From a virus, in IMG/VR virus record IMGVR_UViG_3300033979_000277, positions 1 through 23,471 of that record: 23,471 nt of DNA. One strand, 5' to 3'. Position numbers and translations under genes: made by a program. The stretch's first letter is position 1. Each line of letters starts with the position of its first letter. Below are positions 4,442 through 23,471 of the stretch, one piece after another. The notes under the pieces were generated by a model, which worked only from the letters and a program-made list of their open reading frames with translations, was not told the origin of the DNA and did not search any database.

Positions 4442-4445
4442 CACC

Positions 4446-4981: not shown

Positions 4982-4982
4982 C

Positions 4983-6980: not shown

Positions 6981-7062
6981 CTGTGGCCACGTGCCAGCCG
7001 TGGGCGCGTGCCGCTGCGCCCGATAGCTTCCCCAGCGGCGACCCCAACCACCGAGGTGACCC
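6981..7062 (+). promoter_or_regulatory. Untranslated leader with hairpin before the tail-tube gene
   Basis: This 82-base gap is the longest between coding regions in the late operon. It holds a perfect 6-bp stem (GGGCGC at 7002-7007 with GCGCCC at 7016-7021, 8-base loop) and ends in GAGGTGACCC just before the GTG start of the tube protein, a clear ribosome binding site. Such a leader may stabilise or separate the highly expressed tube message. No good sigma-70 promoter is visible. Role is inference. Confidence 0.4.
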
Positions 7063-7985: not shown

Positions 7986-8016
7986 CCGTGGGCACCGGGG
8001 CGACGGTCTCGGTGCC
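7971..8016 (+). promoter_or_regulatory. Programmed -1 ribosomal frameshift site (slippery GGGAAAC and hairpin)
   Basis: The heptamer GGGAAAC occupies 7976-7982, read as G GGA AAC in the zero frame and followed at once by TGA (7983-7985). After a spacer of 8 bases, GGCACCGGGG (7991-8000) pairs with TCTCGGTGCC (8007-8016) over 10 bp (eight Watson-Crick, two G-U), leaving a six-base loop. The -1 frame then reads CTG ACC GTG without a stop to 8359. A GGAG triplet series (7954-7967) ends 8 bases upstream and could act as an internal Shine-Dalgarno stimulator. This is the canonical architecture of tail-chaperone frameshifting. Confidence 0.9.
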
Positions 8017-8359
8017 GCGGTCAGTCTCGCAGTACGTGGCGCGGGTGGTGGTGCAGGTGGCGCGGGCGACGGCCCGCCCGGTGGCCGAGGTGGCGCGGGA
8101 TTCGTTCGCCTTGACGTTGTGGACGTGGGGCGAGATTATGGCGATGGACCGGGAGGCGACGGTGGAGCGCATGGGGGAACGAACGGACCTGGCGGGCCTC
8201 GTCGCCGTGGCATTTCACGAGCCGAGCAAGCTGCAACAGGCCGAGCTGCGCTACCTGAAGGCGGCGGGGCGGCTGACGTCCATGATCGACCAGGCGAAGG
8301 CGCGGGCGCTGGCGCTGGTGGCGCAGCACGAGCGGCTGGCCGTGGTCGGGGAGGGCTGA
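7982..8359 (+). CDS. Tail assembly chaperone, frameshift extension (T domain of G-T)
   Basis: This frame is read after the -1 shift, with base 7982 read twice: join 7626..7982 and 7982..8359, giving a 244-residue G-T protein. The 125-residue extension includes VGTGATVSVPRSVSQYVAR, a helical middle (SFALTLWTWGEIMAMDRE) and a long C-terminal helix (KLQQAELRYLKAAGRLTSMI). In other phages the T part contacts the tape measure. A gene caller may start it at the GTG at 7988, but there is no convincing ribosome binding site there, and the slippery site makes fusion the better model. It ends three bases before the tape-measure ATG. Confidence 0.83.
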   Translation: MTVGTGATVSVPRSVSQYVARVVVQVARATARPVAEVARDSFALTLWTWGEIMAMDREATVERMGERTDLAGLVAVAFHEPSKLQQAELRYLKAAGRLTSMIDQAKARALALVAQHERLAVVGEG

Positions 8360-8362
8360 CGC

Positions 8363-10459: not shown

Positions 10460-10462
10460 GCC

Positions 10463-10903
10463 ATGGCTTCCATCGGATTCAACGACGGCACGAGCGCCAC
10501 GCTCGACAACGGCACCACCGGGGTGGCGGGCGCGGTCGGCTCGCGCTTCGCCAACTGGACGCCGTTCACGCGGCGGGTGGGCGACACCGCGGTGGCGCTG
10601 GCGACCGGGGCGCGGTCCATGTTCACCTTCCGCACCGACTACGGGGCGCGGTTCGAGATGCGGGACATCCCGGCGACCAACCAAGGGACCGCCCTGCGGC
10701 TGATCCGGCATCTTCAGGGCGGCGGGACGTGCAGCGTGACGACCAGCGACAACAGCGCGCGCACCTACACCACCTGCGGGCTGGACCCGGAGGGGACGGT
10801 CGAGCTGGCGTTTCAGGACGCTACGTTCCTGACCTACACCTTGTCGGTGTCGCTGGTCAACCTGGCGTCTCCGGGCGCGGACATGCTGTGCGACTATGCC
10901 TAA
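10463..10903 (+). CDS. Minor tail protein, distal-tail-like position
   Basis: The 146-residue protein lies between the tape measure and the tail hub, the place of distal tail or tip-attachment proteins. It is beta-rich: GFNDGTSATLDNGTTGVAG, then SMFTFRTDYGARFEMRDIPA, a helix ALRLIRHLQGG, and TVELAFQDATFLTYTLSVSL. It may be a small tail-tip protein similar in role to lambda gpM or a Dit. I cannot assign a family. The last eight bases overlap the start of the large hub gene (ATGCCTAA), suggesting translational coupling. Confidence 0.65.
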   Translation: MASIGFNDGTSATLDNGTTGVAGAVGSRFANWTPFTRRVGDTAVALATGARSMFTFRTDYGARFEMRDIPATNQGTALRLIRHLQGGGTCSVTTSDNSARTYTTCGLDPEGTVELAFQDATFLTYTLSVSLVNLASPGADMLCDYA

Positions 10904-13900
10904 CTACCTGATCGAGTACCGGCTGCGCATCCGCAATGCGTCCACGGTCACGGACCCCAACGGGACCGCGGACGCGCTGAGCATTTCGAGCGTGGCGGGC
11001 GGGACGAACCCGTACCTAGCGGGACCGCCGAGCGGGGACGGACAGGAGATCGACCCGGTGACGGGGCAAACCCGGACGGGTTCGTATGTGGTGGAGGTCG
11101 TCGACGCGGCCACGGGCACGGACGGGACGGGCACGATCCGCGTGGTCACGAACGCCCTGGAGGACGCGGGCTACCTTCAGCAGCTCTTGGGGCGGCGGGC
11201 GTATGTCGAGACGCGCACGGACGGCGGGAGCTGGACGGGCCTAACGGCGGGGTACGTGCTGTCCATTCGGCTGGTGGCCCCGGCGCGATACGCCATCACG
11301 GTGGGAGATACGCGGCGGGTGGAGCAGACGCAGCCGATCTTCACGGGCAACACGCTCGGCAGCTATGCCACCCGGGGCTGCCTGACGGGTGGTCCGGTGA
11401 CGGCCACGTTTGGCCCGGTCGTGGCCCGCGGCGGCTGGACGTACAAGATCTACAAGGTGGGGGCGACCGACGACTGGTTCGCCGAGTTCCAATCGGGCTA
11501 TCTGCCGTACATCGGGGCGCCCATTGTCAAGGACTGGCGCCCGCTGGTCAACCAGACGGTGGTGGACACCATCGCGGCGCGGGCCATTGCCAACCCAGCA
11601 TCGGTGTCGCTGTTCGGGTCCAACCAGTCGCAGTACGTGACGGCCTACCGGGACGTGCTGGTCTACGTCAACGGGACCCTGAGCACGGCCACGCTGTGCG
11701 GGTATTCCAGCGTGCTGACGGGCGAGACGCTGGGGTATAACCGGCTGTATTTCTACTGGCCCAGCGCCACGGTGTCGAGCGGCGACACGGTCACCATTAG
11801 CCTGTTGACCAGCGAGGTGTCGGCGCTGTGCCCGCTGTACATCGACGCGCACCCGGTGGACATCGTGACCGCCATCTGGACGGCGGCGCGGGTGAAGTAC
11901 GATACCGGCGGCGCGTGGATCAATACCCTGCGCAACCTGATCGGCCCGCAGGTGCGGATGGCGCTTAAGCTGACCGAGGCGCCGGTTATCGTGGACTTTC
12001 TGGAATCGGCCATCTGCGGCCCCTTCGGGCTGGCGGTACGGACCACCAGCGCGGGCGACCAAGAGCTGGTCGGCACCCGCATCCTGACGACCGCCGTGCC
12101 GTCGCTGACCATCGCGGCTGGCGACTTGAGCAGCGCCGATCCGGTGGTGTTTGATCTGGACGAGCGGACGGCGATCAACACCGTCACGCTGACGCAGCAG
12201 ACGCTCGCCCCGGCGACCTTGCAGGGCGCGCCGCCGACGGGGGCGACGGGCTCCAGCATCCCGGCGGACGGGCTGGTCACGCTGCCGTTGAGCATCACGG
12301 GCCGCTACGTCGACCCGGCGACGAGCACGTTTGCGGCGCGGGACGTGACGTTCTCGGTGCCGGGGATGATTCACACGGCGACTGACTGGCAGCCGACGCC
12401 CGCCGAGACGCTCAACGTCATCGCGCAGGGCATCCTGCCGCGGTTCGGGCGCGGCTCGCCGGTGGCCGATGTGCAGGTGCTGGCCAGCGCGGCCAGCGCG
12501 GCGGCGCAGGTGGGGGACGAGGTGTACCTGGAGGCTCCGCACTATCCCAACCGAAACTACAGGATCGGGGAGAGCACGGTGGGCGCCCGCATCATGCAGG
12601 TGATCCGGCGCACCGAGACCCCGACCGGGCCGCAGCTTCGGCTGCTGGACAGCGGGATCAACGCGCAGCCCGTCAGCCCTGCGGCCACGATCACGATCCA
12701 GGCCAACACCAACCACCCCAGCCTGATCGCGCAGTTTACCATCACAAACGCGGCGACCATCAATAGCGGCGGGGTGCTGTCGGTCGAAGTGGAGTGGGCC
12801 ACGGGCTCCAGCACGCCGACCACGAACGGCGCGGCCTTCGCCACCTACGCGCCCGGCACGGTGCCGACCGGGGCGGTGGACCTTCCCGCGGTGGTCGGCT
12901 CGGGGGTGACGGTCTATGCCCGCGCCCGGACGACGCAGACCGGGCGGCGCCCATCCGCCTTCACCGCGTGGGCCAGCGTCACCCTGACGGCGATCCCGAC
13001 TCCGGGCGCCATCTCGGTGGGCACGACGACCGCCACCAGCGTGGCCATCTCGTGGACGAACACCAGCACCGCCTACCCGCTGTTCGTGTTCGCCTACTTG
13101 GGCGGCTCGGCCCCGGCGCAGTGGGAGCCGTACCTCGTCACCACGCTGCCGCCCGGGTCCACGTCGACGGTCATACGCACGCTGGAGGCGGGCACGTACC
13201 AGCTCGCCATCGCCTATAGCACCCCGACCGGGCGTGGCCCGGTGGCGACGGCCAGCGTGACGACGAGCGGCACGGGCAGCACGGCCACGCGCCCGGCGGG
13301 GCTGGCGCTCGTGCCGCTGCTGGATGACGCCACGTTGGAGCAGGGGATCGCGCTCGGGCTCTATGCGTCCGACCAGACGCTGGACTTCGTGATCGAGCGC
13401 AGCGCGGTGAGCGGCAGCAGCTTTGGGGAGATCGCCCGCGTACCGGGGTCTACCGCGGTCTACGTGGACCGGCTAGCCCGCGACGGATTCACCTACTACT
13501 ACCGGGCCAAGCACGCGCTGGGCGGGTTCGTGACCAGTGCGGCGACCGGCGAAGTGTCGGGGATTGCCCGGGGGGTGCCCGCGGAGCTGCTGCGCCCGGC
13601 GCCCGTGGTGCCCACCGTTGGGGTGGAGATCACCGAAAGCAGCACCACGGGGACTGTCACGCTGGTCATTACCGACCCGCAGGGGCGGCTGACCGAGGTG
13701 CGATTCCGCGACGACCCGGGGACCGGGGTGTTCGGCGCGTGGACGGTCGACAGCGCTGCGCCTTACACCTACAGCGCCACGATCCCGACCACCGGGTTCC
13801 TGCGCATCGAGTACGAGGTGAAGGGCTTCGACGCGGACGGCATCGAGCGGTTGCTGGCGTCGGGCATCGAATCGTTTGACCGCGGGCGCGTGGCCAACAT

Positions 13901-15413
13901 TGTGAGCGCGGCGGGGCTCTTTAGCACGGCAGGCGTGCTGACGGTGACCGTGCAGGGGGACACGGACACGGTCTCTATCAAGTATGCGGTCTCGGCTACG
14001 CCATGGGCCAGCGATGCCGTAGCCTATGCCGCCGCGCAGGCGGGGACGCTGATCAACGCCCGCAACGGCACGTTCACGGACGCCGGGCCCTGGTCGGTCG
14101 GGGCCGTGGCTTATGTCGCGTTCGCAGCCTATGATGCGGCTGGTGGCGGCGGCAACGTCAGCGGCCCCTATCAATACGTATTCACCAACGGGGCGCGGGA
14201 CACCAAACCGCTCATTTCCCGCGCCCGCGAGCTGACGACCAGTACGGCGACGGTCGCCAAGGTGCGCGTGGCGGTCAACGTACCGGACCCGTTCACGTCG
14301 ACCACGGCGACGATCCGGTACACCACACAGGGGCTCACGGGCGTCTCGCCCGCCGACTCTAGCGGCAACACGGTGACCACGGGGACGGGCAACTTCGCCA
14401 GCCCGGAAACGGCGGGCAGCTTCATCGACTTTGATGTGCCGCGCCCCGCGGTCGGCGCTCCGGCGGGTATGATTACCTTCACCGCCACGGCGACCGGCTA
14501 CGCGGCGGACACGGACCCGGTGGCCATCGCCCCGGTGGCGACCACGCAATCCCTGATCGGGCGGGCGCGGGTGGTTGCCAACAGCGGCACGCAGCTCACC
14601 ATCCGCATGGCGGTCGCCAGCCCGGTGGCGCTGTCGCCCAACACGGCCACGGTCTCGTGGGTGACCGACGCGCTGGCAGCCACCAGCCCCTTGAGCCCGG
14701 CGACCGTCACCCCGGAGACCAACACTACGGTCACCGAGGTGGCGGGCAGCTACGTCGACGTGACGGTAGACCGCCCCGCCATCGGCGGCAATACGGGGCG
14801 CATCACCTTCCTCGTGACTGCAACCGACCGGGCCGCGGTCAGCGACTCGGTGGACGTGCCCGCGATTGAGCGCGTGGGGCCGAGTCTCAACATCGTGACA
14901 ACGCCGGGCAGCTCCAGCTACTCACTGGTCATTACCTGGACGGGGACGATCGCGTTTGATCTGGACGGGGTGTCACAGTCGGTCAGCGGCTGGACCTCGC
15001 CGCGGACCGAGACCATCACCCGCAACGACTTCAGCGGCGCGGCCAAGGTGGCCTCGTTCAGGGCGACGAAGGACAGCATAACCATCGGCGAGTCGGTCAA
15101 CGTCCCCGCCAAGGACGCCACGTCGGCCAGCATCACCATCGGCACCCAGAACGCGGACGATGTGACCAACGAGTACGAGTTCAGCTGGACGGGCAGCGGC
15201 TTCCCGAGCGGCACGCAATACGACCTCCAGTACCGCACGGTGACTACGGGCGGCACGGTGGAAGATGGCTTCCTGACCAACCAGACGAGCCCGGTGACGG
15301 TGACCAGCGGTTATTCTATCGGGGTGAGCCCCACCTACCAGATGACGGTCTATGCGCGGTCGAGCGACACGGTGCTGATGTCGCGCTTTCGCGCCGGGAC
15401 GTTTTTGACCTAG
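10896..15413 (+). CDS. Large tail tip / hub protein with fibronectin-III-like domains
   Basis: At 1505 residues this is the largest gene and probably forms the tail tip and central fibre. Residues 1-590 are hub-like, with VTNALEDAGYLQQLLGRRAY, WTAARVKYDTGGAWINTL and the baseplate-like segment PRFGRGSPVADVQVLAS. Residues about 700-790 form an FN3-like domain (ATSVAISWTNTSTAYPL, then GTYQLAIAYSTPTGRGPV), and a second begins near 800 (YVDRLARDGFTYYYRAKHAL). Residues about 1104-1217 and 1218-1330 are a tandem duplication (LISRAREL and LIGRARVV starts; AGSFIDFDVPRPAVG and AGSYVDVTVDRPAIG). The C-terminus is more beta sandwich. It likely recognises the host receptor. No peptidoglycan-cleaving motif is seen. 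The start overlaps the previous gene by eight bases. Confidence 0.82.
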   Translation: MPNYLIEYRLRIRNASTVTDPNGTADALSISSVAGGTNPYLAGPPSGDGQEIDPVTGQTRTGSYVVEVVDAATGTDGTGTIRVVTNALEDAGYLQQLLGRRAYVETRTDGGSWTGLTAGYVLSIRLVAPARYAITVGDTRRVEQTQPIFTGNTLGSYATRGCLTGGPVTATFGPVVARGGWTYKIYKVGATDDWFAEFQSGYLPYIGAPIVKDWRPLVNQTVVDTIAARAIANPASVSLFGSNQSQYVTAYRDVLVYVNGTLSTATLCGYSSVLTGETLGYNRLYFYWPSATVSSGDTVTISLLTSEVSALCPLYIDAHPVDIVTAIWTAARVKYDTGGAWINTLRNLIGPQVRMALKLTEAPVIVDFLESAICGPFGLAVRTTSAGDQELVGTRILTTAVPSLTIAAGDLSSADPVVFDLDERTAINTVTLTQQTLAPATLQGAPPTGATGSSIPADGLVTLPLSITGRYVDPATSTFAARDVTFSVPGMIHTATDWQPTPAETLNVIAQGILPRFGRGSPVADVQVLASAASAAAQVGDEVYLEAPHYPNRNYRIGESTVGARIMQVIRRTETPTGPQLRLLDSGINAQPVSPAATITIQANTNHPSLIAQFTITNAATINSGGVLSVEVEWATGSSTPTTNGAAFATYAPGTVPTGAVDLPAVVGSGVTVYARARTTQTGRRPSAFTAWASVTLTAIPTPGAISVGTTTATSVAISWTNTSTAYPLFVFAYLGGSAPAQWEPYLVTTLPPGSTSTVIRTLEAGTYQLAIAYSTPTGRGPVATASVTTSGTGSTATRPAGLALVPLLDDATLEQGIALGLYASDQTLDFVIERSAVSGSSFGEIARVPGSTAVYVDRLARDGFTYYYRAKHALGGFVTSAATGEVSGIARGVPAELLRPAPVVPTVGVEITESSTTGTVTLVITDPQGRLTEVRFRDDPGTGVFGAWTVDSAAPYTYSATIPTTGFLRIEYEVKGFDADGIERLLASGIESFDRGRVANIVSAAGLFSTAGVLTVTVQGDTDTVSIKYAVSATPWASDAVAYAAAQAGTLINARNGTFTDAGPWSVGAVAYVAFAAYDAAGGGGNVSGPYQYVFTNGARDTKPLISRARELTTSTATVAKVRVAVNVPDPFTSTTATIRYTTQGLTGVSPADSSGNTVTTGTGNFASPETAGSFIDFDVPRPAVGAPAGMITFTATATGYAADTDPVAIAPVATTQSLIGRARVVANSGTQLTIRMAVASPVALSPNTATVSWVTDALAATSPLSPATVTPETNTTVTEVAGSYVDVTVDRPAIGGNTGRITFLVTATDRAAVSDSVDVPAIERVGPSLNIVTTPGSSSYSLVITWTGTIAFDLDGVSQSVSGWTSPRTETITRNDFSGAAKVASFRATKDSITIGESVNVPAKDATSASITIGTQNADDVTNEYEFSWTGSGFPSGTQYDLQYRTVTTGGTVEDGFLTNQTSPVTVTSGYSIGVSPTYQMTVYARSSDTVLMSRFRAGTFLT

Positions 15414-15415
15414 CC

Positions 15416-16528
15416 ATGCAACTGCACCTCTTGGCCGTGCCGCATACCGTGACGCGGCAAGACTTTACGCACTGCGCGTTCACGCAGAAGGTAAAGCGGT
15501 TCGGCCCCATGCTGTTCCCGCACGGCTACCGCGTGATTCACTACGGGGTGGCTGGCAGCGAGACGGGGGCGACCGAGGACGTGGTGCTCATGGAGCAGGA
15601 CGAGCACCAGGCGCTGCTGGGCCACGCCTACCACGAGGTCGGGCGCGGCTTCTACGGGGCGGACGCCGTGGACGGCTCGCCGGTCTACCGGCAGTGGAAC
15701 CTGTACGCCCGCGAGGAGCTCAAGGAGCGGGTGGAGCCCGGCGACCTGATCCTGCTGCCGTTCGGCCACGCGCACGCCGCGGCCATCCGCGGGCTGCCGG
15801 TGCTGGCCGCGGGCGCCGGGGCGATCGAGTCGGGGATCGGCTACTACGACTGCCTGTTGCCGTGGCGCATCTTCGAGAGCTATGCCGTGCGGCATGGCGT
15901 GATGGCCAAGGAGGGGCGGCACGGCGTGCAGCTCGACTCGCCGCGGCTGGAGTTCGTGGCGCCCAACTACTATGACGTGGACGAGTGGCCCCGCGGGCGC
16001 GGGAAGGGCGACTACATCGCCTTTCTTGGGCGGCTGACCGAGGGCAAGGGCGTGGCCGTGGTGCTGGAGCTGGCGCGGCGCTGCCCCGACCTGCGGTTCC
16101 GCCTGGCGGGGCAGGGCGACCCGGACGCCTTCGGCGAGGCGCCCGCAAACGTGGAATTTGTCGGACCCCTGTCCACGGAGCGGGCCGAGTTCCTCGGCAA
16201 CGCCAGGGCCATCGTGGCCCCGAGCCGCTACGCGGAGCCGTTCTGCGGGGCCGTGGTGGAGGCGGCGCTGTGCGGCACGCCCGCCATCACGTCCGACTTC
16301 GGGGCGTTCGCCGAGACGGTGCTGCACGGGCAGACCGGCATCCGGTGCAACACGCTGGCCGACTTCACGCGGGCGCTGGACGAGGTGGGACATCTGGACC
16401 GCGGCACGGTGCGCAGCTTGGCCCGGCAGCGGTATCGGCTGGAGACGGTGGGGCAGACCTACGCGGACATCTTTCGCACGGTGCAAGAGCCGCTGCGTGC
16501 CGGGCGCTTCCCGGCGACCGGATGGTAA
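15416..16528 (+). CDS. Glycosyltransferase family 4-like
   Basis: This 370-residue protein is a clear retaining GT-B glycosyltransferase. It opens with the phage-type start LHLLAVPHTVTRQDFTHCAF and TQKVKRFGPMLFPHGYRVIH. The C-terminal half has FLGRLTEGKGV (203-213), RFRLAGQGD (227-235), VEFVGPLSTERAEFL (246-260) and the EX7E motif with Glu274 and Glu282 (EPFCGAVVE), followed by CGTPAITSDFGAFAE. These mark the nucleotide-sugar donor site. The ATG lies two bases after the hub stop. Its place between tail and lysis genes suggests late expression and a virion or receptor-modifying role, but the acceptor is unknown. It differs from the first transferase at the window start. Confidence 0.88.
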   Translation: MQLHLLAVPHTVTRQDFTHCAFTQKVKRFGPMLFPHGYRVIHYGVAGSETGATEDVVLMEQDEHQALLGHAYHEVGRGFYGADAVDGSPVYRQWNLYAREELKERVEPGDLILLPFGHAHAAAIRGLPVLAAGAGAIESGIGYYDCLLPWRIFESYAVRHGVMAKEGRHGVQLDSPRLEFVAPNYYDVDEWPRGRGKGDYIAFLGRLTEGKGVAVVLELARRCPDLRFRLAGQGDPDAFGEAPANVEFVGPLSTERAEFLGNARAIVAPSRYAEPFCGAVVEAALCGTPAITSDFGAFAETVLHGQTGIRCNTLADFTRALDEVGHLDRGTVRSLARQRYRLETVGQTYADIFRTVQEPLRAGRFPATGW

Positions 16529-16539
16529 AGGGGAGACGC

Positions 16540-16842
16540 ATGACCACGGAGACCATCGCCGCCCTGAAGGTCGGCACACTGACCGCGCTCGGCTCGGTGG
16601 CCATCGAGCAGGCGCAGCCGTCCGCGCTGCCGATGGTGGTGCCGGTCGTCTCGGGCATTCTGGGAGCGGGGATCGCCTATGGCATCCTCAAGGGCGCGGT
16701 CGACACCCTGAATCGCCAAGTGGCGGACTTCGCCCGCGAGCTGGCCGCGATCCGGGAGACCACGCACGCCACCGCCGAGCGGGTGGCCCGCATCGAGGGC
16801 ACGATGGAGCGCCGCGGCGCCCCGCGGGGCGAGCGTGTCTAA
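16540..16842 (+). CDS. Small membrane protein with coiled coil, putative holin or antiholin
   Basis: The 100-residue product has a hydrophobic N-terminal half, with likely membrane segments at about 8-22 (ALKVGTLTALGSVAI) and 31-52 (PMVVPVVSGILGAGIAYGIL). Residues 54-92 form a probable coiled coil (DTLNRQVADFARELAAI, then TAERVARIEGTMERR). The tail is basic (GAPRGERV). GGGGAGACGC precedes the ATG at 16540. The gene starts the lysis cassette and overlaps the next membrane protein by eight bases. Membrane plus coil resembles XhlA-type lysis proteins with the order reversed. Holin function is inferred from position and topology. Confidence 0.55.
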   Translation: MTTETIAALKVGTLTALGSVAIEQAQPSALPMVVPVVSGILGAGIAYGILKGAVDTLNRQVADFARELAAIRETTHATAERVARIEGTMERRGAPRGERV

Positions 16843-17179
16843 CCCCGGGCCGAGCCCGCGGCGGGGGACGTGGCTGTACACGCAGCAGGGCGAGCTAGAC
16901 CCGCTGTGGCTCTTTCTGGCGCTGCACCTGGCGTTGGGCGTGGTGCTCGTGGTGGCCTCGGTGTTTCACGGGAAACAGGCGTTTCTGGCGGCTTTGAGCT
17001 ACAACGCGGTGTCGGTGCTGCTGCTGGCGATCATCAAGGTGCCGATTGACCGCGCCCGCCTGCTGGCCCCGGCGCTGCCCAAGGCCATGGGTGCGCTGGG
17101 CGCGGCGACCAGCCCGCCGTTTGCGGGGATGGACCAGGACGAGCGGGGGCCGGATGACCGGGATGTGACGTGGGACTGA
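16835..17179 (+). CDS. Two-helix membrane protein, putative holin
   Basis: The 114-residue protein has two predicted transmembrane helices: residues 24-44 (LWLFLALHLALGVVLVVASV) and 48-67 (AFLAALSYNAVSVLLLAIIK). The C-terminal part is soluble and acidic at the end (DQDERGPDDRDVTWD). The start is GTG, overlapping the previous gene by eight bases; its own end overlaps the amidase start by ten bases. Two helices, small size and the adjacent amidase fit a holin. Which of the two membrane proteins forms the hole cannot be told from sequence. Confidence 0.58.
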   Translation: MSNPGPSPRRGTWLYTQQGELDPLWLFLALHLALGVVLVVASVFHGKQAFLAALSYNAVSVLLLAIIKVPIDRARLLAPALPKAMGALGAATSPPFAGMDQDERGPDDRDVTWD

Positions 17180-17682
17180 CCCCGGGGCCTGCGCAGGTGG
17201 ACCAGCTCGGCACGCGGGCAGCGCCGCCGATCACGTGGGCGCGGTCGACGCACCACAGCGAGCGGCGCGGGGCGGCGGTGCGGTGGATCGTGCTCCACGC
17301 GGACGTGAGCCCGCGGGAGTCGTCCACGGTCTCGTGGCTGCTGTCGGCGGCGTCCAAGGTGAGCTACCACGCGCTGGTCCACCGGGACGGCAAGGTCACG
17401 CGGTTCGTGGTGGATAGTCGGGCGGCGTGGGCTTGCGGGGCCAGCGAGTACGGCGGGGTGGTGGGGCTCAACCGGCACACCTTGAGCTTAGCGTTCAGCA
17501 ATCGTCACGACGGCGTCGAGCGACTGACTGACGCGCAGGTGGACGCCGCCCGCTGGCTTATCGAGGATTGGCGCGCGCGCTACCCGAGCATTGAGGGGGT
17601 GCTGACCCATGCCATGATTTCGCCGGGGCGGAAGAAAGACCCGAACCTCATCCCGAATTTTTACCGGCACGACTACACCTAG
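17170..17682 (+). CDS. Endolysin: N-acetylmuramoyl-L-alanine amidase (Amidase_2 family)
   Basis: This 170-residue enzyme should cut the bond between N-acetylmuramic acid and L-alanine in peptidoglycan. It shows the Amidase_2/T7-lysozyme layout: WIVLHADVS with zinc ligand His43, KVSYHALVHRDGKVTRFV (63-80), AAWACGAS (85-92), LSLAFSN (105-111), and LTHAMISPGRKKDP (145-158) with zinc ligands His147 and Asp157 and a nearby catalytic-type Lys (155/156). There is no signal peptide, so export would depend on a holin. The start is GTG at 17170. No cell-wall-binding domain is present; the length is that of a single-domain phage amidase. Confidence 0.88.
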   Translation: MGLTPGPAQVDQLGTRAAPPITWARSTHHSERRGAAVRWIVLHADVSPRESSTVSWLLSAASKVSYHALVHRDGKVTRFVVDSRAAWACGASEYGGVVGLNRHTLSLAFSNRHDGVERLTDAQVDAARWLIEDWRARYPSIEGVLTHAMISPGRKKDPNLIPNFYRHDYT

Positions 17683-17690
17683 GGGGCGGC

Positions 17691-18158
17691 ATGAGTCAGG
17701 CGCGGCTGGTGCTGGTGGGGCTGGGGTTGGTGGCGGCGGTGGTCGGCACGGCCTACGAGCTGGGGCGGCGGGGTGGCGAGGTGGCGGGGCTTAGGGCGCA
17801 GCGCACGGTGGTGGTCGAGTCGCTGGCGGTGCTGGACACGGTGTACCTGACCGATACCCTGCGGCTGTGGCGGCGGGTGACCGCGTGGGACACGCTATAC
17901 GATACGACCCGGATCACCGAGCGGATCACGGACACCGCGTGGGTCCGCGGCACGCTGGCGGCGGCGGACACGACCATCCGGGCGTGTGTGCGCACGGTGC
18001 TGACCTGCGAGCAGCGGGTGGCGCTGGAGGCCAAGCGGGCCGAGCTGGCCGAGGCCGAGGCGCGGCGGCTGTCGGTGCAGCCCCCGTCCAGGCGAAGCTG
18101 GTGGACGCATGGCGCGGCGGCTGGTGCCGGGGTGGCGCTGGGGCTGTTGGCGCGGTAG
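17691..18158 (+). CDS. Spanin-like (Rz-like) protein, tentative
   Basis: The 155-residue protein has an N-terminal membrane anchor (residues 5-22, RLVLVGLGLVAAVVGTA), a long charged middle with repeated Thr-Asp-Thr patterns (LDTVYLTDTLRLW, TRITERITDTAWV), two cysteines (99 and 106), a helix rich in Glu and Ala (ALEAKRAELAEAEARR) and a second hydrophobic segment near the end (GAAAGAGVALGLLAR). Position after the amidase and the anchor-plus-coil layout fit an inner-membrane spanin. The second hydrophobic end is unusual for Rz. There is no visible lipoprotein partner. GGGGGCGGC precedes the ATG. It is the last gene before the terminator. Confidence 0.45.
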   Translation: MSQARLVLVGLGLVAAVVGTAYELGRRGGEVAGLRAQRTVVVESLAVLDTVYLTDTLRLWRRVTAWDTLYDTTRITERITDTAWVRGTLAAADTTIRACVRTVLTCEQRVALEAKRAELAEAEARRLSVQPPSRRSWWTHGAAAGAGVALGLLAR

Positions 18159-18205
18159 ATTGGTGGAGCTGGCCCGCTGCTCCCGTGGCGCGGTCAGCAT
18201 GGCGA

Positions 18206-18227
18206 TGCTGGGGGTCCCCCGGCAGCA
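18206..18227 (+). promoter_or_regulatory. Hairpin upstream of terminator; possible antiterminator component
   Basis: TGCTG (18206-18210) pairs with CAGCA (18223-18227), and inner G and C runs extend the stem. The segment GCTGGGGG (18207-18214) is identical to the right arm of the terminator (18244-18251), so it can also pair perfectly with CCCCCAGC at 18232-18239. The three pairings exclude one another, as in attenuators. In a GC-rich genome chance is possible. Confidence 0.4.
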
Positions 18228-18231
18228 CAAG

Positions 18232-18261
18232 CCCCCAGCCCCCGCTGGGGGTTTTGTGTTT
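18232..18261 (+). terminator. Rho-independent terminator of the late operon
   Basis: CCCCCAGC (18232-18239) pairs with GCTGGGGG (18244-18251) across a CCCC loop, and TTTTGTGTTT follows at 18252-18261. The 8-bp all-Watson-Crick stem with a T-rich tail lies 73 bases after the last late gene. Confidence 0.85.
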
Positions 18262-18340
18262 CCCCCTTGACGGATGGCGCGCGAGGGTGAGTATTGATGT
18301 CGCTCGGTGTTCCGACCATCGGGCAGCCATACGCAGGGAC

Positions 18341-18414
18341 AGCCCCCGCGCTCTCGGTGCCGCCTCGCTCTAGCGGGGCGGGTCGGACACCGACGAGCCG
18401 GGGGCTCTGTGTTT
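18341..18414 (+). terminator. Long imperfect hairpin with T-rich tail; terminator or structured small RNA
   Basis: AGCCCCCG (18341-18348) pairs with CGGGGGCT (18399-18406). The pairing continues inward with single-base bulges (18349, 18394) through CTC/GAG and TCGGTG/CACCGA. After a six-base bulge (18382-18387) a 9-bp apical stem (18360-18368 with 18373-18381, one G-U pair) is capped by a four-base loop. I count 27 pairs. The tail CTCTGTGTTT (18405-18414) resembles the tail of the terminator at 18252. It is a second terminator or the body of a small RNA. Confidence 0.6.
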
Positions 18415-18595
18415 CCGGGGGTGGGCCGACACTATTGCGACAGTCACAGCGGGCCTAGTGCGGCTCTCCCGCTGCGGGGCGACCAGACCGTCCCGCGACC
18501 AATCCTGAGCCAATGACGTGCGCAGACCGCGGTACACAATCCAGGCACTGTCGCCCTACAACCTGGCCGGTCATCCCCCTGCGCATTGCGGTTAC

Positions 18596-18615
18596 CCTAG
18601 ACGGGGACGTCTAGG
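18596..18615. repeat. Perfect inverted repeat CCTAGACG-GGGA-CGTCTAGG
   Basis: Eight bases (18596-18603) are exactly complementary to 18608-18615 around a GGGA tetraloop. No T-run follows, so termination is unlikely. It could be a protein binding site or a stable RNA hairpin. Confidence 0.65.
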
Positions 18616-18670
18616 CAGCGAGGCACAGCAGCTCCTGGCGAGGCATCTCGCACGGCACCCCGAGGAAGGG

Positions 18671-18695
18671 GGGACACGACCACCCCGCGTGTCCC
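18671..18695. repeat. Perfect inverted repeat GGGACACG / CGTGTCCC
   Basis: Arms at 18671-18678 and 18688-18695 are exactly complementary with a nine-base loop. It lies between the CTAGACG hairpin and the early promoter. No T-run follows. Role unknown. Confidence 0.6.
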
Positions 18696-18744
18696 GCACT
18701 CGGCCCCCCTGCTGGTCAGTCTGGCAAGAAACGGCCCCACCCTA

Positions 18745-18763
18745 TCATCCCCACTACGGATGA
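18745..18763. repeat. Inverted repeat TCATCC / GGATGA
   Basis: Six-base arms at 18745-18750 and 18758-18763 flank a seven-base loop. It lies about 55 bases upstream of the -35 region of the early promoter. It could be an upstream regulatory site; at this length chance is possible. Confidence 0.4.
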
Positions 18764-18808
18764 CCGGGTATGGGGGGGTGCGCCCTAAAGTTCCCGAGAC
18801 TTTCTTTT

Positions 18809-18835
18809 GTGGACCTATTGACAAGACTAGTCCAC
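18809..18835. promoter_or_regulatory. Candidate operator dyad over the early promoter -35 box
   Basis: GTGGAC (18809-18814) and GTCCAC (18830-18835) are exact inverted repeats flanking and overlapping the -35 region and spacer. A protein bound here would block RNA polymerase. The binding protein is not encoded recognisably in the window, unless the winged-helix protein at 21757 serves. Confidence 0.5.
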
Positions 18836-18845
18836 GGGCTATATT
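18818..18845 (+). promoter_or_regulatory. Sigma-70-type early promoter TTGACA-16-TATATT
   Basis: A perfect -35 box TTGACA (18818-18823) is separated by 16 bases from TATATT (18840-18845), which matches five of six bases of the consensus. The surroundings are unusually AT-rich for this genome (TTTCTTTTGT just upstream). The first gene of the early module starts at 18907 after a leader of about 55 bases. This is the strongest promoter-like sequence I find. Confidence 0.82.
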
Positions 18846-18860
18846 CCCTAGTGTCGAGAC

Positions 18861-18899
18861 GCTGGACGCCACCAGCCGAGACGAAACGCCCACGGGAGA
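18861..18899 (+). promoter_or_regulatory. Early leader element copy 1: hairpin plus CACGGGAGA ribosome site
   Basis: GCTGGACGCCACCAGCC (18861-18877) folds as GCTGG/CCAGC with loop ACGCCA. CACGGGAGA follows at 18891-18899, seven bases before ATG 18907. The 17-base element recurs exactly at 19204-19220. Confidence 0.65.
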
Positions 18900-18906
18900 T
18901 AAGACG

Positions 18907-19188
18907 ATGACCAACGCCACCAGCTCCGCCCGCGCCGCCCGCACCGCAAAGTTTCTTGACGATGCCGCCGCCGCGGTGCGCGACGAGCGCAACGCCCGCA
19001 AGGCGCTTGCCAAGGAACTGCGCCGCCAAGCGAAGGCCGACCGCCGCGCTGCCGCCTATCTGCGACTGACCGCGCCCAGCGCGATCAATCCCGAAGCCAA
19101 CCTGCTGTCCGCCTGCCTTTACATCGAGGACGCGCTGCGCAAGGAAGAGCGCGCCGCCGATGTGCTGGGCTGGGCCGCTGTCGCCTGA
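18907..19188 (+). CDS. Small early protein, basic and helical, unknown function
   Basis: The 93-residue protein is rich in Ala, Arg and Lys in its first half (SSARAARTAKFLDDAAAAVR, ARKALAKELRRQAKADRRAA) and should be almost wholly helical, perhaps a coiled coil. The end is mixed (SACLYIEDALRKEERAAD). It is the first gene after the strong early promoter. The ATG at 18907 was chosen because CACGGGAGA lies seven bases before it; the frame is open further upstream but crosses the promoter. Being first in an early operon suggests a host-interacting or nucleic-acid-binding protein. No family is recognised. Confidence 0.65.
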   Translation: MTNATSSARAARTAKFLDDAAAAVRDERNARKALAKELRRQAKADRRAAAYLRLTAPSAINPEANLLSACLYIEDALRKEERAADVLGWAAVA

Positions 19189-19203
19189 ACCACCACCGCC
19201 GAG

Positions 19204-19242
19204 GCTGGACGCCACCAGCCCCGGCATCACCACCACGGGAGA
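19204..19242 (+). promoter_or_regulatory. Early leader element copy 2: hairpin plus CACGGGAGA ribosome site
   Basis: The same 17 bases as at 18861 recur here (19204-19220); with the preceding G the stem is GGCTGG/CCAGCC with loop ACGCCA. CACGGGAGA (19234-19242) precedes ATG 19250 by seven bases. The spacing from box to ATG equals that of copy 1. Confidence 0.65.
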
Positions 19243-19249
19243 CTAGACC

Positions 19250-19543
19250 ATGACCACGACCCGCCCCACGCACACGGTGACCCCCACCGCCGCCGAGCTG
19301 ATCGCCGCGGCGCTGGGCCACGACGGCCAGCGCTGGGCCACCTCGGACGGGGTGACTCTGGACGAGCTGATTGACTTGCACGGCGGGCGCATTGACGTAA
19401 GCTATGATTCTTGGCGTGCCGTGTTCGCCGACGGCTCGGCCATCACGGTGTCCGGCGGTGCCGCCTGGGACATCGGGTACGCGGGCTGCTGGTGCTGGCA
19501 GGGCAACGGGCACGAAAACTGCACCGCTGGGCTGGAGGGCTGA
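19250..19543 (+). CDS. Small early protein of unknown function
   Basis: I do not recognise this 97-residue protein. It begins with a Thr-rich stretch (MTTTRPTHTVTPTAAELIAA), has a compact acidic part (VTLDELIDLHGGRIDVSYDS), then a beta pair (WRAVFADGSAITVSGG) and an aromatic, Cys-containing end (GYAGCWCWQGNGHENC). The cysteines and histidine near the end could bind metal, though the spacing fits no known zinc ribbon. It has its own copy of the leader element and is followed after three bases by the next ATG. Confidence 0.62.
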   Translation: MTTTRPTHTVTPTAAELIAAALGHDGQRWATSDGVTLDELIDLHGGRIDVSYDSWRAVFADGSAITVSGGAAWDIGYAGCWCWQGNGHENCTAGLEG

Positions 19544-19546
19544 CCG

Positions 19547-20044
19547 ATGATGCTGACGACGACTTTGAACGCCATCCGCGCCCACGATCCGTGCGACGAC
19601 GGATGGCAGAAGCTGCTGGCCCATCTCGGCAAGACCGGCCCGGACGACGAGCCGGTGACGCTCGCCACGATCTTGGACAGCAACGGGTTGGATGACGCGC
19701 TGTGGGCGCTGCGGTGCGTCACGGGACACGACCGCGCCATCCGACTTTATGCCGTGTGGTGTGCGCGGCAGGTCCAACACCTGATGACGGACCCGCGCAG
19801 CCTGCGCGCGCTAGACGTGGCCGAGCGGCACGCGGACGGGCTGACCACGGATGCCGAGTTGGCTGCGGCAGGGGCTGCGGCACGGGCTGCGGCACGGGCT
19901 GCGGCATGCGCTGCGGCATGGGCTGCGGCATGGGCTGCGGCAGGGAATGCGGCAGGGGATGCGGCAAGGGATGCGGCAGGGGCTGCGGCAGGGGATGTGC
20001 AGGCTGCCGAGTTTCGCCGTCTGTTTTGCACGGAGGACGCGTGA
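19547..20044 (+). CDS. Alanine-rich repeat protein, resembles proteins annotated as putative immunity proteins
   Basis: The 165-residue protein has two parts. Residues 1-104 contain LATILDSNGLDDALWALRCV, RLYAVWCARQVQHLMTDPRS and LDVAERHADGLTTDAEL, a pattern I recognise from many phage and bacterial proteins often labelled putative immunity protein; the true role is unknown. Residues 106-149 are eleven four-residue repeats (AAAx, later DAAx) encoded by eleven 12-base units, predicted to be one long helix. The C-terminus (VQAAEFRRLFCTEDA) is non-repetitive. The next gene's GTG overlaps this stop by four bases. The repeat could change length by recombination without breaking the frame. Confidence 0.7.
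   Translation: MMLTTTLNAIRAHDPCDDGWQKLLAHLGKTGPDDEPVTLATILDSNGLDDALWALRCVTGHDRAIRLYAVWCARQVQHLMTDPRSLRALDVAERHADGLTTDAELAAAGAAARAAARAAACAAAWAAAWAAAGNAAGDAARDAAGAAAGDVQAAEFRRLFCTEDA
19862..19993 (+). repeat. Eleven tandem 12-base units (GCTGCGGCANGG)
   Basis: Eleven consecutive 12-base units share nTGCGGCAnG(G/C), with first codon GCT, AAT or GAT and a variable fourth codon (GGG, CGG, TGC, TGG, AGG). The array is in frame within the alanine-rich protein and contains no stop in several frames, which creates long spurious open frames on both strands. Confidence 0.92.
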
Positions 20045-20244
20045 CCGACAAGCCGAACGTCGGACGCCGCTGGACCGCCAACTTCGCCACGACCCCCATG
20101 CCCGCGTGCAAGGACGGCGTCCACCATGGCTGGCCGTCCCACCGTCCGGTGGGGCTGTGGTCCGAACACAAGCTGGGCCGCTGCATCACCGATTGGACCT
20201 GCCAGGTCTGCGGGCTGGTGGTCCACATCGACAGCAGCGACTGA
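20041..20244 (+). CDS. Small Cys/His protein, possible zinc-binding
   Basis: The 67-residue protein starts with GTG overlapping the previous stop by four bases. It contains PACKDGVHHGWPSHRPVGLW and then GRCITDWTCQVCGLVVHID, giving Cys33 followed by His37 and His38, and later Cys48, Cys54 and Cys57 (CxxC). This could be a one-zinc ribbon. The rest is basic and Trp-rich. Small early zinc-ribbon proteins in phages often bind nucleic acid or host polymerase, but no such function can be claimed here. Confidence 0.6.
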   Translation: MTDKPNVGRRWTANFATTPMPACKDGVHHGWPSHRPVGLWSEHKLGRCITDWTCQVCGLVVHIDSSD

Positions 20245-20254
20245 CGCTACATTG

Positions 20255-20290
20255 CCTATTGCGCTTTTCTAGAGCTAGCGCAATAATAGG
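20255..20290 (+). promoter_or_regulatory. AT-rich dyad and possible second early promoter
   Basis: TATTGCGC (20257-20264) and GCGCAATA (20278-20285) are exact inverted repeats around a 13-base loop containing CTAG. TTGCGC (20259-20264) with AATAAT (20282-20287, 17-base spacer) makes a moderate promoter. CCTATTG followed by CTAG seven bases later resembles the early promoter at 18814-18830 (six-base gap). It lies in the 102-base gap before 20347. Confidence 0.5.
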
Positions 20291-20331
20291 GACGGCGCTC
20301 GGCCCGCCTGTCGGGCGCCACGCACCACCAC

Positions 20332-20340
20332 CACGGGAGA
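20332..20340 (+). promoter_or_regulatory. CACGGGAGA ribosome site, third copy
   Basis: The box CACGGGAGA precedes ATG 20347 by six bases. Upstream a stem GCCCG/CGGGC (20302-20306 with 20312-20316) replaces the 17-base hairpin of the first two copies. A fourth box at 22101-22109 precedes ATG 22116. Confidence 0.6.
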
Positions 20341-20346
20341 CGCACC

Positions 20347-20565
20347 ATGACCGAGTACGAGATTACACGCGCCCACAGCAACACGCTGCTTCAGCGCGTG
20401 GCCTTCCTGACCCACGAGATCAACGCGGCGGGCGTCTACTTCCCCGCCACGTTGGACCAGCTCAAGGCCGAGCGCCGCGCCATCGCCGACGAGCTGGCAT
20501 ACCGCCGCGCCGAGGACAGCCGCGAGGCCTACGAGGCCACCACCGCCGCCGGGGGCTGGGCATGA
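20347..20565 (+). CDS. Small helical early protein, unknown
   Basis: The 72-residue protein (MTEYEITRAHSNTLLQRVAF) is almost entirely helical, with LDQLKAERRAIADELAYRRA as a charged coil-like segment. It could dimerise through that helix. It starts after the CACGGGAGA box and a probable promoter, and its stop overlaps the next ATG (ATGA). No family recognised; small size and early position are typical of phage host-takeover proteins, which is only a guess. Confidence 0.6.
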   Translation: MTEYEITRAHSNTLLQRVAFLTHEINAAGVYFPATLDQLKAERRAIADELAYRRAEDSREAYEATTAAGGWA

Positions 20566-21029
20566 CCGGCTCCCCCATCCCGAGCGGCCACGGCCCGCTC
20601 GCCGGGCGCCCGATGCTCTGGTGGAGCGAGGACATCCGCAATTCCCGCGCAGACATGGCCCGCGGCATCGCCCTGGCGTTGACTGCCGCCCGTATCCTTG
20701 CCGTTCGCCGCCCGACCGCGCAGCAGGTCACCGGCGACTACCGCATCGCCCTGGAGGAGCGCGAGCCCGTCCACGCCATCATCACCGCCGCCTACGATGA
20801 GCTGTACGCCGCCATCACGGCGCTCGAGGAGGCGCGGCAGGCGGTGGACACGGCGCACCGGATGCTCGGCTACATCCCCGCCGAGTGGACGCGCCGCAAT
20901 ACCCTCGACTGGTCGGAGCGCCCCGATCTGTGGGGCTGCACCGCCGAGGACGTGGCTCGCGCCGACCGCGCCCGCGCCCACGGCATCTTCGCCACCGACG
21001 TGACCACCGGCCTGACGGGGGGCGCATGA
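20562..21029 (+). CDS. Unknown early protein
   Basis: The 155-residue protein is mainly helical. It has an N-terminal Gly/Pro stretch (MTGSPIPSGHGPLAGRPMLW), a helix DMARGIALALTAARILAVRR, a central coil (AAYDELYAAITALEEARQAV) and a C-terminal part with PDLWGCTAEDVARADRARAH. I chose ATG 20562 because it overlaps the previous stop; the frame is open far upstream through the shadow of the alanine-repeat gene. It directly precedes the annealing protein with a four-base overlap, so may be a recombination accessory, without other support. Confidence 0.58.
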   Translation: MTGSPIPSGHGPLAGRPMLWWSEDIRNSRADMARGIALALTAARILAVRRPTAQQVTGDYRIALEEREPVHAIITAAYDELYAAITALEEARQAVDTAHRMLGYIPAEWTRRNTLDWSERPDLWGCTAEDVARADRARAHGIFATDVTTGLTGGA

Positions 21030-21757
21030 CCAGCTCCGAGACGACCGCGACCCTGTGCGCCGCGCTGGTGGCCGCGCAGGGGGCGCTCAAGCCCATCGCC
21101 AAGGACGGCAAGAACCCGGCCTTCCGGTCCAAGTACGCTACGCTGGATGGCATCATGGAGACGGTGCGCCCCGCGCTGGCCGCGCACGGGCTGGCCGTGG
21201 TGCAGGGGGTGATCCACCCCGAGACGGGCGAGGGCGGGCGGCTGGTGGGCATCACGGTTGAGACCTGCTTGCTGCATACTTCGGGCGAGTGGCTGGCGTC
21301 CGTGGTGCCGGTGCCGGTCGCCAAGGGGGACGCGCACGGGCTCGGCTCGGCGCTGTCCTACGGTCGCCGCTACGGCATCTCGGCCCTTCTGGCGCTGTCC
21401 ACGGACGAGGACGACGACGGCAACGCCGCGGCCAAGGCCCCGCCCGCCAAGCCCCAGGCGAAGCCCGCGCCAACGGCGCCCGCCCCGGGCCAGCGGCTGC
21501 ACGACAGGGTGCCCGAGACGCCGCCGGAGCGCATGAGCCTCGCCAAGGCAAATACGGTAGAACTCAAAGGACAGTTGCTTGCCGATATGGAGGACGACCG
21601 GTTGGACAAGCTGCGCGCGTGGGCGCAGGATAAGGGGAACGGGCTTATCCTTGCCGCCATCGACGCTATCCAGGCGTCTCGTCAAGCCGCGGACGGCAGC
21701 GGGCTGCACGCACACGACGGCGAGGTGGAGCCGATGGACGGGAGCTTGCCGTTCTGA
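21026..21757 (+). CDS. erf: ERF-family single-strand annealing protein
   Basis: The 243-residue product is an ERF-type recombinase that anneals complementary single strands during phage recombination or replication. Family signs are NPAFRSKYATLDGIMETVRP (30-49), ALAAHGLAVVQGV (50-62), a beta segment LVGITVETCLLHTSGEW and the signature GSALSYGRRYGISALLAL (107-124) followed by an acidic stretch (STDEDDDG). A Pro/Ala linker (139-155) leads to a helical C-terminal part (VELKGQLLADMEDDRLDKLR) and the end DGSLPF. That end resembles the acidic SSB tip (DDDIPF), which binds partner proteins. The ATG overlaps the previous stop by four bases. Confidence 0.87.
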   Translation: MTSSETTATLCAALVAAQGALKPIAKDGKNPAFRSKYATLDGIMETVRPALAAHGLAVVQGVIHPETGEGGRLVGITVETCLLHTSGEWLASVVPVPVAKGDAHGLGSALSYGRRYGISALLALSTDEDDDGNAAAKAPPAKPQAKPAPTAPAPGQRLHDRVPETPPERMSLAKANTVELKGQLLADMEDDRLDKLRAWAQDKGNGLILAAIDAIQASRQAADGSGLHAHDGEVEPMDGSLPF

Positions 21758-22119
21758 TGCGCCCCCTCGACTGCATCACCACCGCGGTCCGCTCGCTGGT
21801 GCGCCGGGACGATCCGGCCACCAGCCACGCCGCCGCCGCCCGCGTGGGCCAGCGCCTGAGCGCCACGCAGGCCCGGGTGCTGACCTACCTCGTCGCCGTG
21901 GGCTCCCGTGGCCTGACCGACGACGAGCTGGACAACGCCCAGGCGTTCGACGACCTGCGCCCGTCCACCGCCCGCAAGCGCCGCACCGAGCTGACCCGCA
22001 TGGGGCTCGTGACCCCGGCGGGCATCCGCGACCGCCAGCAGGTGTGGGTGGCCGTGCGCCCCGGCAGCCACCCCGCCGCGCCCCTGACCACCACCGACCA
22101 CACGGGAGAAACACGATGA
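21757..22119 (+). CDS. Winged-helix DNA-binding protein
   Basis: The 120-residue protein has the short motif DDPATSHAAAARV (18-30), common to many phage proteins, followed by a predicted winged helix: LSATQARVLTYLVAVG, LTDDELDNAQAFDDLRPS, TARKRRTELTRMGLVTPAG and a wing strand RQQVWVAVRPG. The family is often placed in recombination or replication modules; it might regulate transcription or help DNA transactions. The start shares a base with the annealing gene stop (TGATG) and the end overlaps the next ATG. It is the only clear HTH protein in the window and so a candidate to bind the dyads at 18809 or 20257. Confidence 0.75.
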   Translation: MRPLDCITTAVRSLVRRDDPATSHAAAARVGQRLSATQARVLTYLVAVGSRGLTDDELDNAQAFDDLRPSTARKRRTELTRMGLVTPAGIRDRQQVWVAVRPGSHPAAPLTTTDHTGETR

Positions 22120-22973
22120 GCACGCTACGCTGGGCACGCGCCGAAACGGAGACGGCAGTACTCGTCATCAATCCCATAACGGCGCAGCAGATGTTGACCA
22201 CCAGCACCGGCAACCGCACCATGCGCGGTCACTACGTCAAGCGGCTGGCCGATGCCATGCTTCGCGGCGAGTGGCGCGTGACGAGCCAAGGCATCGGGTT
22301 TGACGTGACCGGCGCGCTCCGGGACGGGCATCACCGGCTTAGTGCCATCATCCAGTCCGGCGTGGCGGTGGAGCTGCCGGTAGTCATGGGGATGCCGGTG
22401 ACGGCCTACCAAGTCACCGACATCGGGATGCGGCGAACCTATGCCGAGCTGCTCGGTGAGGACCGGATTATTGCCGAGGTGCTGTTGTTTGCCGCGCAGC
22501 ACGCGCTCGGCGTGAAAGTTCCCAGCGTCGACCAGATCGCGGTCATGCGCAACTCAAGGCTGTATGCAACAGCGACCGCGCTGCAAGAATTTTGCAGTCT
22601 CCGCGTGCGCAACTTTTCCGCGGTGCCTGTGCGTCTGGCCGCGTGCGTGGAGGTGCTGAATGGCGGCAGACAAGCGTTTGTGTTTGAGCAATACCGCGCC
22701 ATGTGCACGCTCGACTACGACCAAATGACGCACGCGACCAGAGCGTATGTGCGACAGGTGCAGATGTCCGAAACATCACGCAGCAGCACGGTGACCCGGG
22801 AAGGCAAGCGCAACGAGCAATTGGCGCGAGCCCTCCGCGTGTTTGATGAAGACCGCAAGGACGTGACAAGGATTCAGATGAATGAGTCAACCATATCGGC
22901 CTCTGTGCAATTGGTGCGCTCTGTGCTCCGAAACGCAATTGAATACACTCTGGACGTGGAGGGCGCCGCATGA
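22116..22973 (+). CDS. ParB/DGQHR-like protein with lower GC than neighbours
   Basis: The 285-residue protein has a ParB-N-like core: INPITAQQML, YVKRLADAMLRGEWRVTSQG (40-59), GIGFDVTGALRDGHHRLSA (59-77) with the DGHHRL motif, and VELPVVMGMP, then TDIGMRRTYAELL. Proteins with DGQHRL in this fold include nucleases and regulators; the phage version is uncharacterised to me. Residues 120-285 are helical. The DNA is clearly poorer in GC: I count 48 % for 22861-22920 and 55 % for 22561-22620, against 72 % for 23221-23280. It may have arrived from another genome. CACGGGAGA lies six bases before the ATG, which overlaps the previous stop. Confidence 0.72.
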   Translation: MSTLRWARAETETAVLVINPITAQQMLTTSTGNRTMRGHYVKRLADAMLRGEWRVTSQGIGFDVTGALRDGHHRLSAIIQSGVAVELPVVMGMPVTAYQVTDIGMRRTYAELLGEDRIIAEVLLFAAQHALGVKVPSVDQIAVMRNSRLYATATALQEFCSLRVRNFSAVPVRLAACVEVLNGGRQAFVFEQYRAMCTLDYDQMTHATRAYVRQVQMSETSRSSTVTREGKRNEQLARALRVFDEDRKDVTRIQMNESTISASVQLVRSVLRNAIEYTLDVEGAA

Positions 22974-23471
22974 CCGCCCTGCACCTGTACGACTTGGCCG
23001 AGGAGGCCGTGGCGCTGGACGACCTGCTGGCCATGGACGACGGCGAGTGGACCTGCGAGGCCGAAATGCTGGCCACCGAGCTGGCGGGCAAGCTCGCCAT
23101 CAAGGCCGACGCCTTCGGCGGCTACCTGCGCGGGCTGGAGGCGCAGGACGAGGCGCTGGCCGCGGAGATCACCCGCCTGACCGCCCGCCGCCGGGCCGTG
23201 ATCGCCCGCACCGCCAAGCTCAAGCAGTACGGCCTGCTGGCGCTCCAGCGCATGGAGCGCCCCAAGGTGGCGGGCGACCTGTTCACCCTGGCGGTGCAGA
23301 ACAACCCGCCGTCCGTCGCCCTGACCGTGGGCGTGGACGCCCTCCCCGCGCAGTACGTCCGCACCATCCCCGAGCAGCGCGAGCCCGATAAGACCGCCAT
23401 CCGGGACGCCCTCAAGCGTGGCGAGACCATCGACGGCGCCACGCTCACCACCACCCAATCCCTTCGCGTCC
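22970..23471 (+). CDS. Gp157-family protein, cut by the window end
   Basis: An ATG at 22970 overlaps the previous stop and the frame stays open to the window end (167 complete codons). It opens MTALHLYDLAEEAVALDDLL, has a long helical hairpin (AEMLATELAGKLAIKADAFG, RLTARRRAVIARTAKLKQYG), then a beta part with NNPPSVALTVGVDALPAQYV, PDKTAIRDALKRGETIDGA and TTTQSLRV. This is the layout of the Siphovirus Gp157 family, long coiled coil then small beta domain. Its function is not established; a role in phage resistance was suggested for the original streptococcal protein. The location beside ERF is common for this family. The C-terminus is missing here. Confidence 0.85.
   Translation, partial: MTALHLYDLAEEAVALDDLLAMDDGEWTCEAEMLATELAGKLAIKADAFGGYLRGLEAQDEALAAEITRLTARRRAVIARTAKLKQYGLLALQRMERPKVAGDLFTLAVQNNPPSVALTVGVDALPAQYVRTIPEQREPDKTAIRDALKRGETIDGATLTTTQSLRV

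Follow-up and report, generated by a model that had tools for sequence, protein, structure and literature searches.

The largest intergenic gap of a 23,471-bp virus record, the whole of which is referred to here as the window, lies between the late and the early genes and appears to encode a structured RNA, about 115 nt long (18301-18416), in which a hairpin, H1, is followed by a second hairpin, H2. Sequence comparison supports a fold in which the two are held together by a kissing pseudoknot between the loop of H1 and a bulge of H2. H1 (18301..18325, + strand) has a stem of 8-9 bp and a 7-nt loop, TTCCGAC, at 18310-18316, and positions 2-7 of this loop (TCCGAC, 18311..18316, +) are the exact complement of the 6-nt bulge GTCGGA (18382..18387, +) on the 3' side of H2. 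H2 is a long terminator-like hairpin (18331..18412, +, with the tail TTTCC extending to 18416) that is built from a basal helix (18331-18334/18409-18412), a stem (18341-18359/18388-18408) and an apical hairpin (18360-18381). The gap itself (18159-18906) measures 748 bp and is gene-free, as stated in an initial annotation of this DNA; the next intergenic gaps in the window are 102, 82 and 61 bp long. The same annotation described the gap as a 750-base structured switch. Its first third is indeed structured beyond chance, the remainder is not, and no sign of switching was seen. The single switch is several separate things, namely a terminator-like hairpin (T1), the H1-H2 RNA and a promoter (P3) with a leader hairpin.

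Structure and covariation of the H1-H2 RNA

The loop-bulge pairing is found as three distinct sequences: TCCGAC/GTCGGA in the window and contig L004, TCAGGC/GCCTGA in contigs L003 and L006, and TGACCC/GGGTCA in contig L015. All six pairs are intact in each of the three, and four of the six are doubly changed. In an alignment (A5) that comprises three distinct rows, 92.7% of the cells pair and 16 of 46 pairs are doubly changed compared to 6.4 in shuffles (0/500 reach 16). These counts lean towards the fold because the model used to fit A5 took its structure from the same sequences. On this alignment, 96% of the H1 cells are paired, with double changes in three of nine pairs, and shifting the pairing partners by one to three columns abolishes the covariation signal. 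The covariation in H1 and H2 includes G-U pairs, as expected for RNA, and the sample is small, with just three sequence types. Two controls are independent of the fitting of A5. Among 67 unrelated IMG/VR matches to the sequence pattern of H1 and H2, none possessed a loop complement within 80 nt. In the window, a loop complement within about 100 nt was detected for seven of 104 comparable hairpins, H1 included, so that a single case is weak evidence; what carries weight is that the match recurs in shifted form. Opening the H1 loop and the H2 bulge costs 0-1.2 kcal/mol in each type, the six-base duplex alone is worth about -8 kcal/mol, and folding z-scores of the H1-H2 RNA are -4.5, -6.5 and -4.8. 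None of 4227 Rfam families scored at or above its gathering score for the region, and permissive Rfam searches returned sub-threshold, chance-level matches only.

A covariance analysis over relatives, the check proposed in the annotation, supports a conserved structured RNA between T1 and P3. Structure throughout the gap was not borne out, as the relatives back T1 and H1 with H2 and not the other dyads. The hairpins and dyads listed in the annotation are present, and an inverted-repeat scan of the gap gives seven pairs, including 18229-18254, 18341-18406, 18596-18615, 18671-18695 and 18739-18769. When perfect, non-overlapping hairpins with arms of at least 8 bp and loops of 3-30 nt are counted per 748-nt window, the gap holds three; the mean is 0.64 in other windows of this size (1/114 reach three) and 0.5 in shuffled controls (three reached in 3/200 shuffles). 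The claimed excess of hairpins over the rest of the window is therefore real in direction, but modest and not extreme. Local folding is better than that of shuffles only across approximately 18159-18460 (z of -2.0 to -4.6 per 120-nt window), and 120-nt windows starting at 18399 or later yield z-scores of -1.8 to +0.6. Strong folding was also noted for 3001-3120, inside a coding region (z of -3.5, or -5.05 with fewer shuffles).

Genomic context and distribution

The gene order in the window runs from late genes through the gap to early genes. The late region includes tail genes, an amidase endolysin gene (PF01510, 17170-17682) and an ORF (17691-18158) labelled spanin-like from its position alone, while the early region includes an ERF gene (20969-21757) and a Gp157 gene (from 22970). 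The ORF at 19547-20044 matches phrog_18326 (function unknown). In viral_contigs, tblastn gives at least 257 relatives of this ORF, among which the alanine-rich C-terminal stretch of the product varies in length. In the related genome G002, the large terminase is located at the far end of the early region and the head genes begin the tail-side region; this TerL matches PHROG terminase families and is an ordinary large terminase. A temperate immunity or attachment region was considered and rejected, as no integrase (PF00589, PF00239) was detected in five records, which are possibly incomplete. Phage-record searches did not reveal DNA-level similarity to any cultured phage. An ERF profile scan recovered four relatives that are only distant and occur in unrelated bacteria, and therefore no host was identified. 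The loci of these four relatives gave no match to a covariance model of H1 and H2 (R1). A scan of bacterial genomes for the pattern of the candidate promoter P1 described below returned nothing.

The same late-early boundary is present in L003, L004 and L006 and in L015, which is more distant. R1 detects a single copy in the window and in each of these four, amounting to three distinct sequences. Over the fetched loci, R1 yielded nothing convincing beyond these contigs, and two RNA-based pattern scans and two phage-record searches added no further members. In three loci with related lysis genes (L005, L007 and L008), the gap is short and contains a promoter-like sequence, but not the H1-H2 RNA. 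Over the gap, L004 is 94% identical to the window. L003 and L006 share both gap ends, between which different sequence takes the place of the middle and carries an ORF of 157 aa (L003 11657-12130; L006 11555-12028) whose match to the HNH family PF01844 is sub-threshold (E 0.0031). Relatives of this HNH-like protein were found in L003 and L006 alone among the viral_contigs; L015 lacks the ORF, although a stretch similar to the ORF's first codons is still present there. Despite the replacement that brought in the HNH-like gene, L003 and L006 retain the H1-H2 RNA.

Flanking transcription signals and probable cassette exchange

T1 (18226..18263, +), the terminator-like hairpin of the late operon, reads CACAA, GCCCCCAGC/GCTGGGGG and TTTTGTGTTTCC; its hairpin at 18229-18254 has 11 pairs and, after TTTT, the tail TGTGTTTCCC. 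It presents the G+C-rich hairpin and subsequent T run of an intrinsic terminator, and these are also kept in relatives. Read by eye, the hairpin occurs in all five related records with altered stems, the basal pairs of which include CACAA/TTGTG, CACGA/TCGTG and CGCA/TGCG. T1 and H2 have a common ending of the GGGGG-T/CTNTGTGTTTCC type, and no other such hairpin was present in the records searched. Both resemble intrinsic terminators in being G+C-rich hairpins with a T-rich tail. H2 differs from these in two respects: part of its short tail pairs within a covarying basal helix, and its bulge pairs with a second hairpin, H1. The tail, CTGTGTTTCC, contains at most three consecutive T residues, and a terminator scan reports H2 only as a 5-bp inner match (18395-18407). 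Termination at H2 is uncertain, since its U-tract is short and some of it is taken up by basal-helix pairing (CACA/TGTG).

The candidate promoter P1 (18267..18297, +) consists of TTGACG, a spacer of 19 and TATTGA, and with 8/12 matches (5/6 and 3/6) falls below the threshold of the promoter scan. It is conserved in the window and L004 and in L003 and L006, and its equivalent in L015 is poor (TTGCGT-17-TACCTT). Wherever P1 is present, in two of the sequence types, its predicted start (about 18303-18304 in the window) coincides with the foot of H1. From P1 to H2, the window and L004 are 100% identical, with 72% identity in the spanin ORF and 76% in the T1 region; L003 and L006 are likewise 100% identical from P1 to H2 and 72% in the spanin ORF. 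Between the window and L006, in turn, the late ends are alike (93% and 87%) and the P1-H2 segment is only 65% identical. As the P1-H2 and late-end identities conflict between pairs, P1 and the RNA appear to move together and apart from T1, and these identities place an exchange boundary between T1 and P1. The window and L006 become alike again from approximately 18811 onwards, in P3 and the beginning of the early gene. The RNA is probably part of a cassette, composed of P1, the RNA and either filler or HNH, that phages exchange with one another.

Possible roles of the RNA

We give an even chance to the reading that 18301-18416 is a small non-coding RNA gene of about 112-116 nt, whose two kissing hairpins are transcribed from P1, end at H2 and function as a free RNA. 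P1 would start the RNA at the foot of H1, intrinsic termination at H2 would end it and the product would act as a free molecule; T1 would shield it from late transcription arriving from upstream, and the early genes downstream would be started separately, from P3. The weakness of P1 as an RNA start (8/12, spacer of 19), hardly recognisable in L015, counts against this gene. The annotation listed a source of small RNAs among its suggestions, and here the conserved structured RNA is supported by covariation and a discrete free RNA is a candidate. Its alternative of a transcription control hub holds insofar as the sequence marks a boundary, where T1 follows the late genes and P3 precedes the early ones, but switching was not seen. 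Control in cis could be exerted by a leader in which a protein, a ligand or the ribosome decides between stopping at H2 and running on into the HNH or early genes. The order of promoter, structured RNA and terminator-like hairpin fits such a leader, as does the HNH gene of L003 and L006, which is located between H2 and P3 with no other visible promoter. The window and L015, however, have no recognised complete gene between H2 and P3, and the one competing pairing tested, an antiterminator formed by an H1 arm and the 3' strand of H2, was rejected at 9-31 kcal/mol above the ground state (9, 31 and 19 kcal/mol), so that a cis-acting leader is considered unlikely. It is also rather improbable that T1 and H2 are merely tandem terminators that both stop late transcription, with H1 incidental. 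Their common ending type, found only here, speaks for this arrangement, but a simple terminator would have no use for the loop-bulge pairing with H1, which nonetheless persists through double changes in three types, and the exchange boundary falls between T1 and P1.

Two hairpins behind a candidate promoter, P1 being predicted only, recall the put RNAs of phage HK022, which bind the beta' zinc-binding domain of RNA polymerase and mediate antitermination (PMC9378689). Like putL and putR, the H1-H2 RNA has two stem-loops near the edge of the early region, directly after a promoter that in its case is a candidate, and no protein partner is evident from sequence (PMC9378689). An RNA that acts on the polymerase and lets it ignore downstream terminators is nevertheless a distinctly remote prospect, as put RNA comprises about 70 nt with no terminator at its end and an RNA triplex in stem I (PMC9378689), whereas the RNA described here is about 115 nt long and has a terminator-like second hairpin and a loop-bulge pairing. 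We also regard as doubtful that a new class of phage RNA is represented, in which kissing of the H1 loop and the H2 bulge sets whether polymerase stops or proceeds at the late-early boundary, or acts on the polymerase directly, with no dedicated protein. A DNA element, i.e. a replication origin or packaging site whose hairpins are features of the DNA, is very improbable. The gap is the only large non-coding one in the window, the cumulative GC skew of which peaks at 18425, but in G002 (24161, with P1 at 22354) and G004 (6675, with the RNA at 27.7 kb) the peak is away from the element, and the G-U pairs among the covariation are expected for RNA. The GC-skew check suggested for the proposed replication origin accordingly speaks against it, the skew turn being inconsistent among relatives, and one repeat scan, for inverted repeats only, revealed no iteron array in the gap. 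There is next to no likelihood that the element is left over from an HNH homing cassette that has lost its HNH gene, and is of no use to the phage. Such an origin would agree with the HNH gene in the L003/L006 cassette and with the stretch like its first codons in L015, but H1 and H2 are folded and covary in genomes that have no HNH gene, and it is the segment behind them that changes more.

Relation to known phage RNAs

To our knowledge, few phage RNAs have been described outside model phages, and most candidates are based on folding alone. The loop-bulge pairing, kept by matched changes in three sequence types, constitutes a specific prediction that can be probed by mutation. If confirmed, the H1-H2 RNA would represent a new RNA family that uncultured phages carry where their late and early genes meet and that they swap as part of a cassette, with or without an HNH gene. 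The phi29 packaging RNA, likewise from a phage, measures about 120 nt, and its complementary loops are kept by covariation and pair between molecules. The latter feature distinguishes it from the H1-H2 RNA, and a relationship was rejected since there is no Rfam match and the TerL of G002 belongs to the PHROG terminase families and is not a phi29-type ATPase. Phage-encoded small RNAs (reviewed in PMC12197685) are similar in being short intergenic RNAs with their own putative promoter and terminator. The RNA described here differs in matching no named family and in its strong conserved tertiary pairing.

Remainder of the gap and the early promoter

Behind the RNA, a partly conserved segment (18440..18590, +) contains the pieces CRATCCTGA and GTCGSCCTACRAC, which are common to the window, L003 and L015. 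It has no supported fold (covariation term of +1.68, which is unfavourable). A small protein was rejected for this segment as well, because substitutions between L003 and L015 show no codon-position bias (22/23/25) and a frame that is alike in these two is, by eye, broken in the window. One large RNA spanning 18300-18600 (H1-H4) was likewise discarded, its rear half having an unfavourable covariation term and no folding signal. Three dyads (18596-18615, 18671-18695 and 18739-18769) have no support as RNA structure and are beyond judgement because they are confined to the window and its nearest relative, L004, which are 98% identical there. The one at 18596-18615 is perfect, CCTAGACG-GGGA-CGTCTAGG, and could be an operator, or nothing.

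The strong promoter that the annotation placed in the gap is confirmed as P3 (18818..18845, +; TTGACA-16-TATATT), the promoter of the early genes. Scored against a sigma70-type consensus (TTGACA/TATAAT, spacing of 16-18), it matches at 11/12 positions and is the best promoter found in 4000-23471, with hexamers identical in L003, L004 and L006. It is followed by an early leader (18861..18900, +), in which the hairpin GCTGG-ACGCCA-CCAGC and then ACGGGAGA precede the start codon, and a second copy (19204-19242) is situated before the next early gene. The hairpin, as GCTGG-ACGCC(A/G)-CCAGC, together with ACGGGAGA is present ahead of the first early gene in 5/5 records and of the second in 4/5, the loop and ACGGGAGA being unchanged across the nine copies; it is possibly a shared signal for translation or mRNA stability. 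A relic of the leader, devoid of the hairpin core, was additionally observed ahead of the gene at 20347.
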